From positions 1 to 34,214 of IMG/VR virus record IMGVR_UViG_3300028045_000047: 34,214 bases of DNA; one strand, 5' to 3'. Every line of letters starts with the position of its first letter. Within the stretch, counting starts at the first letter, position 1. A program made the translations under genes and the position numbers. Source of the DNA: a virus. Below are positions 1 through 34,214 of this stretch, in pieces. Below the pieces are notes generated by a model, which ran no database searches, was not told the DNA's origin, and saw only the letters and a program-made list of their open reading frames with translations.

Positions 1-135
1 ACCAGACAGGCATAAATCCTTTCAAGACTCCCCCAGATATTTTTTACTTAGCTTAAGCAAGCTATCCGCAATAAATGCCCTAAAATTTAACTAAGCTCTG
101 CATGATAACGTTTAGGCCGCGGATAAACAGAAGTC
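1..135. repeat. Contig-end overlap (same as 34080-34214)
   Basis: Positions 1-135 equal 34080-34214 except A127 against G34206. This shows a circular assembly. P22-like phages package by headful and have permuted, redundant ends, so the overlap is probably an assembly cut and not a fixed terminal repeat. The cut falls inside structured RNA copy 1. Confidence 0.9.
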
Positions 136-285
136 TATGCCATGGTTTTGTGGTTTGGCCGACCAACAGGGATGTGAAAAGGTATTCTGATATCGTTATG
201 TAGATAAAGCTTAAAGAACGTTTAGGAAGGGTAAAGCCCTATCCATGGTAAACGGTCTATATGACCACTATGTCTATAAATAATA
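1..285 (+). ncRNA. Large structured RNA, copy 1, 3' part
   Basis: Continuation across the circle of the RNA that starts near 33895; total about 470 nt. It aligns with the reverse strand of 22508-22946. Conserved blocks include the AGCTTAAGCAAGCTATCCGC stretch at 51-69 and GGATGTGAA near 170. Helices seen: 34022-34031 with 7-16 (10 bp); 63-69 with 119-125 (TATCCGC/GCGGATA); and a 3' hairpin with 219-224/249-254, 225-227/242-244 and 229-231/237-239. Copy 2 keeps the outer 3' stem with different bases (AGACCTTAA/TTAAGGTCT). Homology stops at a shared ACTATGTYTATAAA block near 285. No terminator follows, so it may be a leader of the small genes from 371. The family is not recognised; structure is inferred by eye from two sequences. 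Confidence 0.75.
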
Positions 286-2019: not shown

Positions 2020-2340
2020 GTGAAATCAATCACAAATATTAAAGGCTTTGCTAGGTCTCAAGATGAGAGTAGGCAATCTATTCAGCACCGAATTAGGCAA
2101 GGTTGGAAATTCGGCATTCTGGATGGTGAGCTTACGATGTATAACCCTAGCTTAGTTAGAAAAGTAAAAACGGATTATGAGCCGTATGTATCTCTTGAGC
2201 AACCAGATATGCTCAAGCATGACAAAGAGGTCATAAATTCTTTTGCTAACGAGGTGTGCGGCGATTGTACAACGACATTTCAAAACACTCTCAGCTTTGA
2301 AGCTGCTAGTTATATAGAAAAAATGAGAATGAAAGGTTAA
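2020..2340 (+). CDS. Hypothetical protein, possible HTH (106 aa)
   Basis: GTG start eight bases after AGAGGG. Residues about 10-50 (SQDESRQSIQHRIRQGW, then LTMYNPSLVRKVK) look like a small helix-turn-helix with a recognition helix rich in Q, R and K, but no family is certain. The remainder is acidic and helical with two cysteines (CGDC). First substantial gene of a run of small, tightly packed genes before the terminase operon. Confidence 0.6.
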   Translation: MKSITNIKGFARSQDESRQSIQHRIRQGWKFGILDGELTMYNPSLVRKVKTDYEPYVSLEQPDMLKHDKEVINSFANEVCGDCTTTFQNTLSFEAASYIEKMRMKG

Positions 2341-2357
2341 CCAACAAGGGACAAGTG

Positions 2358-2603
2358 ATGACTCCATTACAGTTGAAAACAGTTGAGTTCGTAAAAGATT
2401 ATGGAAAGCCTATTTCAGCAAGAGTATTAGCTAAATTGACGGGTAGAAGTCACGCCCAAGTGTGCAATCTCCTTAAAGTGGGGTTTGATGAGAGGCTTTT
2501 AACTAGGGTTAGAAACACAGAGTACACAAATGGTTTGCAATGGGAATATAGCGTTCCTAAAGCGATTAGGGTGTTTGGCATGGATGTTAGGTTAAATAGA
2601 TAA
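2358..2603 (+). CDS. Winged-helix DNA-binding protein (81 aa)
   Basis: ATG 2358 is preceded by AAGGGACAAGTG; the same leader, AACAAGGGGCAAGTGATG, recurs before the next gene. Residues about 5-45 (LQLKTVEFVKDYG, then PISARVLAKLTGRSHAQVCNLLK) have the shape of a winged HTH: a first helix, then a turn, then a recognition helix, with a hairpin wing around ERLLTRVRN. Likely a small phage regulator. The target is unknown. Confidence 0.6.
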   Translation: MTPLQLKTVEFVKDYGKPISARVLAKLTGRSHAQVCNLLKVGFDERLLTRVRNTEYTNGLQWEYSVPKAIRVFGMDVRLNR

Positions 2604-2620
2604 TTAACAAGGGGCAAGTG

Positions 2621-2860
2621 ATGGCTGAAGTTAAAAATAAAATGAAAGTAATACTGCTTAATAATGGCGGGTATGAAGGGTTAAGCAAGGTAGAATTTCC
2701 TGTTGAAGTAGAAGCCTATAGAGATCCAAGTGGGTACTTGGCGGCTGCATCTAAAAGTGAGCTTGTCAGAGTAGGAGCTGAGGCAGATGATTTTGATAGT
2801 AGATATGTCTACATGTTTATCTTAGGTGTCGGTTGCAGATTGGTAGAGGAAGAATTATGA
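2621..2860 (+). CDS. Hypothetical protein (79 aa)
   Basis: ATG 2621 follows AAGGGGCAAGTG. Acidic alpha-beta protein with the early strand MKVILLNNGGYEGL and many E and D; no motif recognised. Its TGA overlaps the next ATG (ATGA), so the two are translationally coupled. Confidence 0.6.
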   Translation: MAEVKNKMKVILLNNGGYEGLSKVEFPVEVEAYRDPSGYLAAASKSELVRVGAEADDFDSRYVYMFILGVGCRLVEEEL

Positions 2861-3036
2861 AAAATCTAACATGCAGCCATTGCGGATATAAGTTTACTGA
2901 TGAAGAGGCTTTTTGTGATGACGGCCGTGTAAGCAAGATTGAATGCCCTAAGTCGACTTGTGGAAAGACATTTTATGTCACGTGTGTTCATTTAATTACT
3001 TGGGAGCTGTGCGGCGAAGGTGGAGAAGAATTATGA
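2857..3036 (+). CDS. Zinc-ribbon-like protein (59 aa)
   Basis: ATG 2857 (ATGA overlap) is preceded by GAGGAAGAATT. The N-terminus carries CSHCGYKF and a second knuckle ECPKSTCGKTF, a C-x2-C and C-x4-C pair with the look of a small zinc ribbon; more cysteines lie towards the end. The junction GGAAGAATTATGAA recurs almost exactly before the next gene, so these two leaders may share origin. Function unknown. Confidence 0.6.
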   Translation: MKNLTCSHCGYKFTDEEAFCDDGRVSKIECPKSTCGKTFYVTCVHLITWELCGEGGEEL

Positions 3037-3320
3037 ATAACAAGTGCAAATGCTTTGACGAGACATTAGTTCGAGTAACAAATCATGTGGAAAAGACGTT
3101 GCCAGAGGGTTCTTGTGATTTCGAGATAGAGTTCGAGGGGCGCTCATTCTTTATGTGCGGGGGTGATTATTCCCCTGTTAATCCAAAAATTAAATATGAA
3201 TATCGAGCACCTAAAAAAGGGGGTGGCCACAAGGTAAACATGACTAAGCGTGAAACTATTGTAATGGCTAGTTTTTGTTGCTTCTGTGGTCGCAAATTGG
3301 AAGGTAAAAGCAATGACTAA
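3033..3320 (+). CDS. Cysteine-rich hypothetical protein (95 aa)
   Basis: Starts at ATG 3033 in an ATGA overlap with SD GGAGAAGAATT. An N-terminal CKC and a C-terminal CCFCGRKL knuckle suggest metal binding. The middle is a beta-rich stretch (DFEIEFEGRSFFMCGG). Small proteins ending in CxFCG-K-L are frequent in proteobacterial phages; their role is not known to me. Confidence 0.6.
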   Translation: MNNKCKCFDETLVRVTNHVEKTLPEGSCDFEIEFEGRSFFMCGGDYSPVNPKIKYEYRAPKKGGGHKVNMTKRETIVMASFCCFCGRKLEGKSND

Positions 3321-22507: not shown

Positions 22508-22946
22508 TTATTTTTTTATAAACATAGTATCAACAAGACCTTAATCATGGATGGAGGTTAACCCCAGCCTTAAGGTCTATTTACCGTTATCATGCAATCG
22601 CAGTAATCAGGTAGCCTATTCACATCCTTGTTGGTAGCTAAAACCATATCCCCATATGACAGAACCTGTTTATCTCGCCTTGAAAAAGTCGTATTGCATC
22701 GGTACTAAATTGAATTTAGGGCATTTTACGCGGATAGCTTGCTTAAGCTAATGGGTTATCTCTGTGGGAGTTTTGCTGAAAGGATTTGTGTCTTATAAAC
22801 TATCACCAAATAGACACAAAAAAGGGTTTAAAATGTAACCCCGTTGGAAGTGGGGTGTAGTTCAGCGAGTGATAAAAACCCTCCGAGATTACAATCTAAA
22901 CCCACTCGTAAACTACTTTCAGCAGCTTCCACACCGCTTTTTACGT
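22508..22946 (-). ncRNA. Large structured RNA, copy 2
   Basis: About 440 nt on the minus strand, aligning over its whole length with copy 1 (33895 through 285). Helices kept with changed bases: pseudoknot stems 22904-22909/22865-22870 and 22890-22903/22824-22837; 22812-22820/22785-22793 (TTTGTGTCT/AGACACAAA against TTTATGCCTG/CAGGCATAAA in copy 1); and the 3' stem 22570-22578/22536-22544. It lacks about 40 nt of inner hairpins that copy 1 carries. Its promoter is at 22952-22980. No terminator separates it from the 43-aa gene. Confidence 0.78.
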
Positions 22947-22951
22947 TCTGC

Positions 22952-22980
22952 ATTGTACATATCAGTACACAACAAGACAA
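22952..22980 (-). promoter_or_regulatory. Promoter of structured RNA copy 2
   Basis: Minus strand TTGTCT (22980-22975), 17-base spacer, TACAAT (22957-22952). Same geometry and same distance to the RNA as the copy 1 promoter (TTGAGG-17-TAGTAT). Confidence 0.7.
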
Positions 22981-33554: not shown

Positions 33555-33737
33555 ATGAAAGAAGATATTGCTAGCTTAATGGCTAAAGTAGAAGAGCTTG
33601 AGGGTGTGATTCATCATTGTTGGTTATATTCTGGATATGGAGATTGCGGCTCTAATAAGATGACAGCAGCCGAAAAGGAATGCTATTTAGGTGCTGTTAG
33701 AGATGTGTCTGATAGAATTGACAAGCAATCTAACTAA
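33555..33737 (+). CDS. Small coiled-coil protein (60 aa)
   Basis: Start at ATG 33555 because AAGGAGG, a perfect SD, is 11 bases before it; the frame also opens at 33507. N-terminal helix KEDIASLMAKVEELEGVIH, then a cysteine-containing middle (YGDCGSNKM) and helix AEKECYLGAVRDVSDRI. Unknown. Its 3' end contains the consensus promoter at 33718. Confidence 0.65.
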   Translation: MKEDIASLMAKVEELEGVIHHCWLYSGYGDCGSNKMTAAEKECYLGAVRDVSDRIDKQSN

Positions 33738-33746
33738 GTGTATAAT
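33718..33746 (+). promoter_or_regulatory. Perfect sigma70 promoter
   Basis: TTGACA (33718-33723), exactly 17 bases, TATAAT (33741-33746). Both hexamers are consensus. The -35 lies in the last codons of the preceding gene. Expected start near 33753. Confidence 0.9.
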
Positions 33747-33752
33747 GCGCGA

Positions 33753-33817
33753 CATTAACGAAAGCTCATCACAGCTACCCTTGTTAGTCAAATCTTCCCC
33801 TTAATTGGGGTTTTTTT
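33753..33817 (+). ncRNA. Candidate 65-nt small RNA
   Basis: Sequence from the expected start of the consensus promoter to the end of the T tract at 33817 contains no ORF with an SD. It ends in the terminator hairpin. A strong promoter with nothing but about 65 nt before a terminator suggests an sRNA or a transcript meant to be antiterminated into structured RNA copy 1. Confidence 0.5.
33797..33817 (+). terminator. Intrinsic terminator
   Basis: CCCC-TTAATT-GGGG and seven T. The stem has only four pairs, as with the 1815 terminator, so readthrough may be notable. Confidence 0.8.
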
Positions 33818-33859: not shown

Positions 33860-33888
33860 TTGAGGTTATTTCACATATCGTGTAGTAT
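33860..33888 (+). promoter_or_regulatory. Promoter of structured RNA copy 1
   Basis: TTGAGG (33860-33865), 17 bases, TAGTAT (33883-33888). Same arrangement as the copy 2 promoter although their sequences differ, supporting function. Confidence 0.7.
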
Positions 33889-33894
33889 ACGCCT

Positions 33895-34214
33895 CGTTAC
33901 AAAGCGGTGCGGCAGTCGCTGAAAGCATTTTGTGAGTGGGTTTAGATTGTAGTCTCGGCGGGTTTAAAGTCACTCACTGAACTGCACCCCACTGTCAACG
34001 GGATTACATTCTAAGTCCTTTTTTATGCCTGCTTGGTGATAGCCTCATAAGCTATAAGGTTTCCCTATACCTACTGTCCACCAGACAGGCATAAATCCTT
34101 TCAAGACTCCCCCAGATATTTTTTACTTAGCTTAAGCAAGCTATCCGCAATAAATGCCCTAAAATTTAACTAAGCTCTGCATGATAACGTTTAGGCCGCG
34201 GATAAGCAGAAGTC
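33895..34214 (+). ncRNA. Large structured RNA, copy 1, 5' part
   Basis: First about 185 nt to 34079, then the overlap region repeated at 1-135. Helices: GTGAGT/ACTCAC (33932-33937, 33972-33977) and the 14-base pairing 33938-33951 with 34005-34018 (13 of 14 pairs, counting wobbles) cross each other, so an H-type pseudoknot. Then TTTATGCCTG (34022-34031) pairs with CAGGCATAAA (34086-34095, also 7-16). Each helix also forms in copy 2 with paired or wobble changes. Family not recognised. Confidence 0.78.
34080..34214. repeat. Contig-end overlap (same as 1-135)
   Basis: Second copy of the 135-base end overlap, with G at 34206 where the start has A at 127. Eight bases from the contig end, so the difference may be a sequence error or a minor variant. 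Confidence 0.9.

Follow-up and report, generated by a model that had tools for sequence, protein, structure and literature searches.

The window, that is, the whole 34,214-nt stretch of the virus record that was analysed, carries two diverged copies, A and B, of one structured RNA, which belongs to an RNA family absent from the Rfam library. We give a probability of roughly one half to the interpretation that this is a new family of tRNA-associated large phage RNAs acting as a scaffold, functionally similar to GOLLD and ROOL; here the function is inferred, and the structure is well supported. The record is that of a circular virus: positions 34080-34214 repeat positions 1-135 with a single mismatch at 127, so the circle is 34079 bp long and copy A lies across its closure. 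The genome carries P22-like portal, head and packaging genes. Copy A is located upstream of the packaging and head genes, and copy B is situated between the tail genes and the tail-spike gene. A small ORF, membrane-protein-like by eye, follows each RNA copy (371-514 on the plus strand and ~22494-22363 on the minus strand). The coordinates of all features are presented in Table 1.

Table 1 Features of RNA copies A and B in the window
Feature	Position	Strand	Remarks
Copy A	33898-34079 plus 1 to ~288	+	structured RNA, across circle closure
Copy A promoter, sigma70-like	33860-33888	+	TTGAGG, 17 nt, TAGTAT; weak, 8/12 match
Copy A 5' core (helices a, b, c, i5)	33904-34024	+	model R1: 81 bits, E 5e-16; T run 34019-34024 at end
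Copy A helix a	33911-33916 with 33991-33996	+	GGCAGT with ACTGTC; swap test; position by eye
Copy A helix b	33932-33938 with 33971-33977	+	GTGAGTG with CACTCAC; crosses helix c; swap test
Copy A helix c, 5' strand	33938-33957	+	partner 33999-34018
Copy A helix c, 3' strand	33999-34018	+	partner 33938-33957
Copy A helix i	33920-33925 with 19-24	+	TGAAAG with CTTTCA, past arm; swap test
Copy A arm hairpin	34022-34094	+	TTTATGCCTG/CAGGCATAAA; 3' strand also at 7-16; tRNA site in other members
Copy A 3' domain	25-261	+	hairpin 49-64; helices e, f, g
Copy A helix e	98-110 with 194-203	+	swap test p 0.002
Copy A helix f	113-119 with 253-259	+	swap test p at most 2e-5
Copy A helix g	139-145 with 243-248	+	swap test p at most 2e-5
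Copy B	22943-22508	-	structured RNA
Copy B promoter	22952-22980	-	TTGTCT, 17 nt, TACAAT
Copy B 5' core	22818-22937	-	model R1: 86 bits, E 3e-17; T run at end
Copy B helix i	22916-22923 with 22782-22775	-	GCTGAAAG with CTTTCAGC; unconstrained fold and swap test
Copy B arm hairpin	22785-22820	-	TTTGTGTCT/AGACACAAA; folding, own versus swapped arms
Copy B 3' domain	22531-22774	-	helix f 22682-22677 with 22539-22534; position by eye

Copies, relatives and promoters

The preliminary description had proposed a large structured RNA in two copies, and the comparison of the copies agrees with this: they align with an identity of 82% within the first 145 nt (E 3e-36) and of 68% beyond that point (E 1e-14). 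The promoter, the tRNAs that relatives have at the site of the arm, the helix closing this arm and the distribution of the family were not noticed in that description. Relatives were sought by pattern scans of IMG/VR and by blastn against phages, and ~ 35 loci were found in Vibrio phages (1.242.O, 1.240.O, 1.110.O, 1.275.O, 1.085.O, 1.054.O, 1.122.A, NF, phiV208, Seahorse, H2, BT-1011 and others), Pseudoalteromonas phages (HS2, HS5, BS5, Pq0 and H105/1) and marine virus contigs. A covariance model, R1, was built from only five of these relatives, with the window copies excluded; this check detected both A and B far from chance (E-values in Table 1), along with nearly all the remaining loci. 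Most records contain one R1 place; the window, NF and one contig contain two. The weaker matches on the opposite strand are the inverted repeat itself. Three pattern matches (L045, L046 and L047) were rejected as chance. Exact-pattern scans of genome contigs yielded nothing, and scans of plasmids gave no match apart from one weak chance one; the patterns were narrow in both cases, and prophages are therefore not excluded.

In nearly all members, the RNA starts directly 3' of a sigma70-like promoter. A promoter-like match of at least 10/12 is located just 5' of the core in 22 of 26 members, compared with 1% of shuffled upstream sequences, and the boxes usual in relatives are a TTGNNN-like box and TATAAT. 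The promoter of copy A is the weakest among the 26. Farther upstream of copy A, at 33718-33746, lies a perfect TTGACA-17-TATAAT promoter, with CCCCTTAATTGGGGTTTTTTT ~ 50 nt past it (span 33718-33817), possibly representing a separate short RNA. A palindromic motif, TGGTTAGACCA, was also observed in five exact copies in the window (at 307, 8456, 23006, 33017 and 33833); with one mismatch allowed and both strands considered, there are 15 matches versus 2.3 expected, and two copies precede the -35 boxes of the two RNA copies by ~ 16-26 nt. This motif is a candidate operator of a phage regulator.

Coevolving helices of the core, arm and 3' domain

The first ~ 120 nt of the RNA form a core of crossing helices, which occurs in three types with a common layout. 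Read by eye, the strands follow the order a, b, c, b', a', c' in type I, where helix c consequently crosses both a and b, and the order a, b, c, a', b', c' in type II. In type III, the whole core sequence is different, yet a helix c and the T run that follows it are kept. The pairing was assessed with a swap test, in which pairing between a member's own strands is compared with that of strands exchanged between members less than 80% identical. For helix c, own strands gave -31.5 kcal/mol versus -15.6 kcal/mol for swapped ones (p at most 5e-5, 16 members). In type I cores (9 members), the p values were 1e-4 for helix a and at most 5e-5 for helix b, and in type II cores they were 0.008 and 0.04, respectively. 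A further candidate, helix d (GGGG/CCCC), failed the test (p 0.6) and is not claimed. Since MAFFT placed gaps wrongly within helix c, pairs were counted on a model-fitted alignment of 27 cores, where helix c shows 95.4% standard pairs versus 37-51% with the partner slid, double-sided changes at 22 of 23 pairs, and frequent G-U pairs. Such an alignment is biased towards the structure fitted to it; nevertheless, the swap tests and the controls with a slid partner are in agreement with it. In addition, folding was more favourable for the transcribed strand than for its complement in 17 of 17 cores (mean -38.6 versus -28.0 kcal/mol), a preference that points to RNA.

These data bear on the question of whether the conserved pairing is a property of RNA or of DNA. 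The earlier proposal that we are dealing with selected RNA structure, and not with DNA repeats, is borne out by substitutions that keep the helices across relatives and by the uniform strand preference. It could still be imagined that a DNA-level element, such as an origin or a recombination or packaging site, is present, with the inverted repeats acting as DNA; the cassette is exchanged between phages and is present twice in three records, as such an element might be. However, the frequent G-U pairs, the consistent folding preference for one strand and the promoter in front make this barely credible.

Between the core and the 3' domain lies an arm that is a hairpin in A, B, L007, L008, L018 and others. 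The preliminary description had paired the strands of this hairpin in A and in B as listed in Table 1, and both pairings are present as it gave them; the pairing of each arm is most stable with its own partner (-12.7 kcal/mol in A and -9.9 kcal/mol in B, versus +0.1 and -7.7 kcal/mol with the arms swapped). In 11 loci, this position is occupied by one to three intact tRNA genes: tRNA-Arg(TCT) is found in 10 of these 11, and tRNAs for Trp, Met, Gly or Ser accompany it or occur on their own. In L017, L025 and L026, the tRNA directly follows the T run on its 3' side, at the site of the hairpin of other members, and the arms of L014 (36.6 bits) and L022 (15.7 bits) are degenerate and tRNA-like. 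No recognisable tRNA signal was detected in the arms of copies A and B. The tRNA genes and the tRNA-like arms could indicate that the RNA serves tRNAs directly, either as a leader that stabilises phage tRNAs or helps to process them, or as a tRNA-like decoy for host anticodon nucleases. We regard this explanation as distinctly unlikely, since most members, the window copies included, have no recognisable tRNA and yet keep the whole structure.

Another important question is whether the sequences on the two sides of the arm are parts of one RNA. Helix i pairs GCUUGAAAG in the core with CUUUCAAGC past the arm; own strands gave -8.1 kcal/mol versus -5.0 kcal/mol for swapped ones (p at most 2e-5, 22 members), and no signal was obtained from neighbouring control windows in the swap test. 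A limitation is the manual choice of the 3' windows, for which a CCTT-like anchor served as the guide. Unconstrained folds of B, L017, L018 and L026 also show helix c together with helix i and the arm. Helix i joins the 5' core to sequence past the arm, so that the two halves are parts of a single molecule.

Coevolution shows that the 3' domain forms a second pseudoknot, which helix f closes at its end. Helix e crosses f and g, and helix f joins a TTAGACC-like strand to a GGTCTAATGA-like end, for example TTAGACACG/CGTGTCTAA, TTAGACCCG/CGGGTCTAA and TTAGAGGC/GCCTCTAA; the weakest helix f of the set is that of copy B. In the swap test, helices f and g each reached p at most 2e-5 (12 members), and helix e reached p 0.002 (7 members). 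For helix g, the first windows had given p 0.14, and the lower value was obtained with wider windows and more members. Two further types of 3' domain (L006/L010/L024 and L014/L018) were left out of these tests. A 3' stem proposed previously, CGTTTA/TAAACG in one copy against CCTTAA/TTAAGG in the other, does exist in A and B; however, it lies within an insertion missing from the other members.

Judging by their sequences, cores and 3' domains recombine between phages. The pairs 1.275.O and 1.122.A, as well as NF and phiV208, have the arm and 3' domain in common and differ in their cores, while HS2 and L012 share the 3' domain and promoter, but not the core. In phage BT-1011 (L027), the core is followed by a tRNA-Met fragment and then a gene, and the 3' domain is missing, which suggests that the core may act alone.

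Possible roles as a terminator-like leader or a scaffold

Almost all cores have the T run after helix c, including those whose helix is entirely unlike that of the others in sequence. Its resemblance to an intrinsic terminator, for which there are no termination data, makes a late or moron operon leader the main rival explanation: the core would be a terminator (helix c and T run) whose regulated readthrough controls downstream genes, as in lambda pR'-tR', HK022 put or EAR, and the tRNAs and 3' domain would be passengers. One feature of intrinsic-terminator leaders, a stem followed by a T run near a promoter, is met in nearly all members. The genomic position of copy A ahead of the packaging and head genes is compatible with this role, as is that of the 1.242.O and 1.275.O loci, for which the circular map shows nin-like genes on one side and the terminase on the other, and genes begin soon after the RNA. 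However, the genes downstream are diverse, copy B and a number of relatives are located elsewhere, and L019 has no T run. Moreover, a leader would not be expected to conserve structure past the terminator, whereas helix i spans it and helices e, f and g lie beyond it. The coevolution of helix i across the supposed terminator indicates that the readthrough RNA is under selection, and coevolution is also seen within the pseudoknot of the 3' domain. A leader function on its own therefore appears rather unlikely to us.

GOLLD and ROOL are tRNA-linked large phage RNAs that are abundant and form RNA cages; to our knowledge, no function has been established for either of them. By analogy, the scaffold interpretation makes it possible to suggest the following mechanism. 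Marine phages would carry a stand-alone gene for this noncoding RNA, in which a sigma70-type promoter of its own, predicted just 5' of the core in the absence of expression data, would start a transcript of ~ 400-650 nt. As coevolution shows, the 5' core folds into its crossing helices, and helix i ties it to the sequence past the central arm so that the halves form one molecule; the arm, as read from the sequence, is a hairpin in some members, and others have between one and three intact tRNA genes there. The RNA is inferred to build up during infection and may serve, as has been proposed for GOLLD and ROOL, as a structural scaffold displaying or sheltering tRNA or other cargo; helix i could keep the halves joined if the tRNA were excised. 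The arms without tRNA in the window, the possibility that the T run stops transcription before the arm, the core of BT-1011 that lacks a 3' domain and the weak promoter of copy A count against the scaffold interpretation, and scaffold and late-operon leader roles could coexist.

A more specific version, which we advance only tentatively, is that this is a third, independent tRNA-carrying scaffold RNA of phages, with no sequence relationship to GOLLD and ROOL, in which the tRNA is held as a built-in arm by a closing helix together with a compact, pseudoknotted core and the cores are exchanged, possibly under antagonistic selection, with the rest kept. If small, cultivated phages of Vibrio and Pseudoalteromonas have a separate family with the layout of GOLLD and ROOL, this would point to convergent evolution towards a single task. 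The family also offers a compact system (one RNA of ~ 450 nt, a phage of ~ 37 kb and culturable hosts), and the natural pairs whose main difference lies in the core (NF/phiV208 and 1.275.O/1.122.A) permit direct module tests.

Comparison with known RNAs

Searches of the window against Rfam 15 revealed no family at the gathering threshold and only chance-level matches, and in 18 relatives tRNA alone was found at the gathering thresholds. We found no published description of the RNA family in the literature, which was covered only in part. The GOLLD model (RF02032) matched none of 15 records, i.e. the window and 14 related records, at E up to 10. The ROOL model (RF03087) likewise matched none of the 15 at this cut-off, a search that lacked a positive control, the control genomes also being unmatched. 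The remark in the preliminary description that the RNA recalls ROOL and GOLLD without matching them thus proved apt: the layout is alike, and both covariance models come back empty. The similar layout and the link with tRNAs could mean that the family consists of very diverged GOLLD or ROOL RNAs. We consider this quite improbable, given that permissive Rfam scans also gave no match to either, and that the conserved part here is the 5' core of ~ 120 nt versus the 3' region in GOLLD.

In GOLLD, the 5' and 3' domains are joined by a variable linker, in which tRNAs are sometimes located, and both GOLLD and ROOL occur near tRNA islands and keep their linkers inside RNA cages (PMC12286853). The present RNA resembles GOLLD as a large phage RNA linked to tRNAs with the same succession of 5' domain, variable linker and 3' domain; the tRNAs between the core and the 3' domain in the 11 loci, although not in the window copies, are comparable to those of the GOLLD linker. 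The two differ in length (~ 400-650 nt versus often more than 800 in GOLLD) and in the distribution of conservation: the 3' domain is of several types here, and it is the 5' region that is less conserved in GOLLD. With ROOL, the present RNA shares its occurrence in phages or prophages, often near tRNA islands, as well as pseudoknots and a variable linker, and differs from it in size and, in the present sample, in hosts.

The Vibrio phage ICP1 contains a noncoding RNA of ~ 800 nt between gp139 and gp140, which is its most abundant transcript (PMC7567579). It is likewise a large noncoding RNA of a Vibrio phage, but it has no tRNA, and no shared sequence was seen; model R1 finds nothing in the ICP1 record (L036), and we rejected it as a member of the family. 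The orf-less region at 2098-3108 of this record, the source of the top transcript, gave no Rfam match at the gathering score and represents another unclassified large phage RNA.

Finally, the lambda pR'-tR' leader, HK022 put and Bacillus EAR are antitermination RNAs. The present RNA is similar to them as a promoter-proximal structured RNA with a terminator-like end that in some members heads late genes. It differs from them in that it conserves a second pseudoknotted domain and a long-range helix reaching past the T run.
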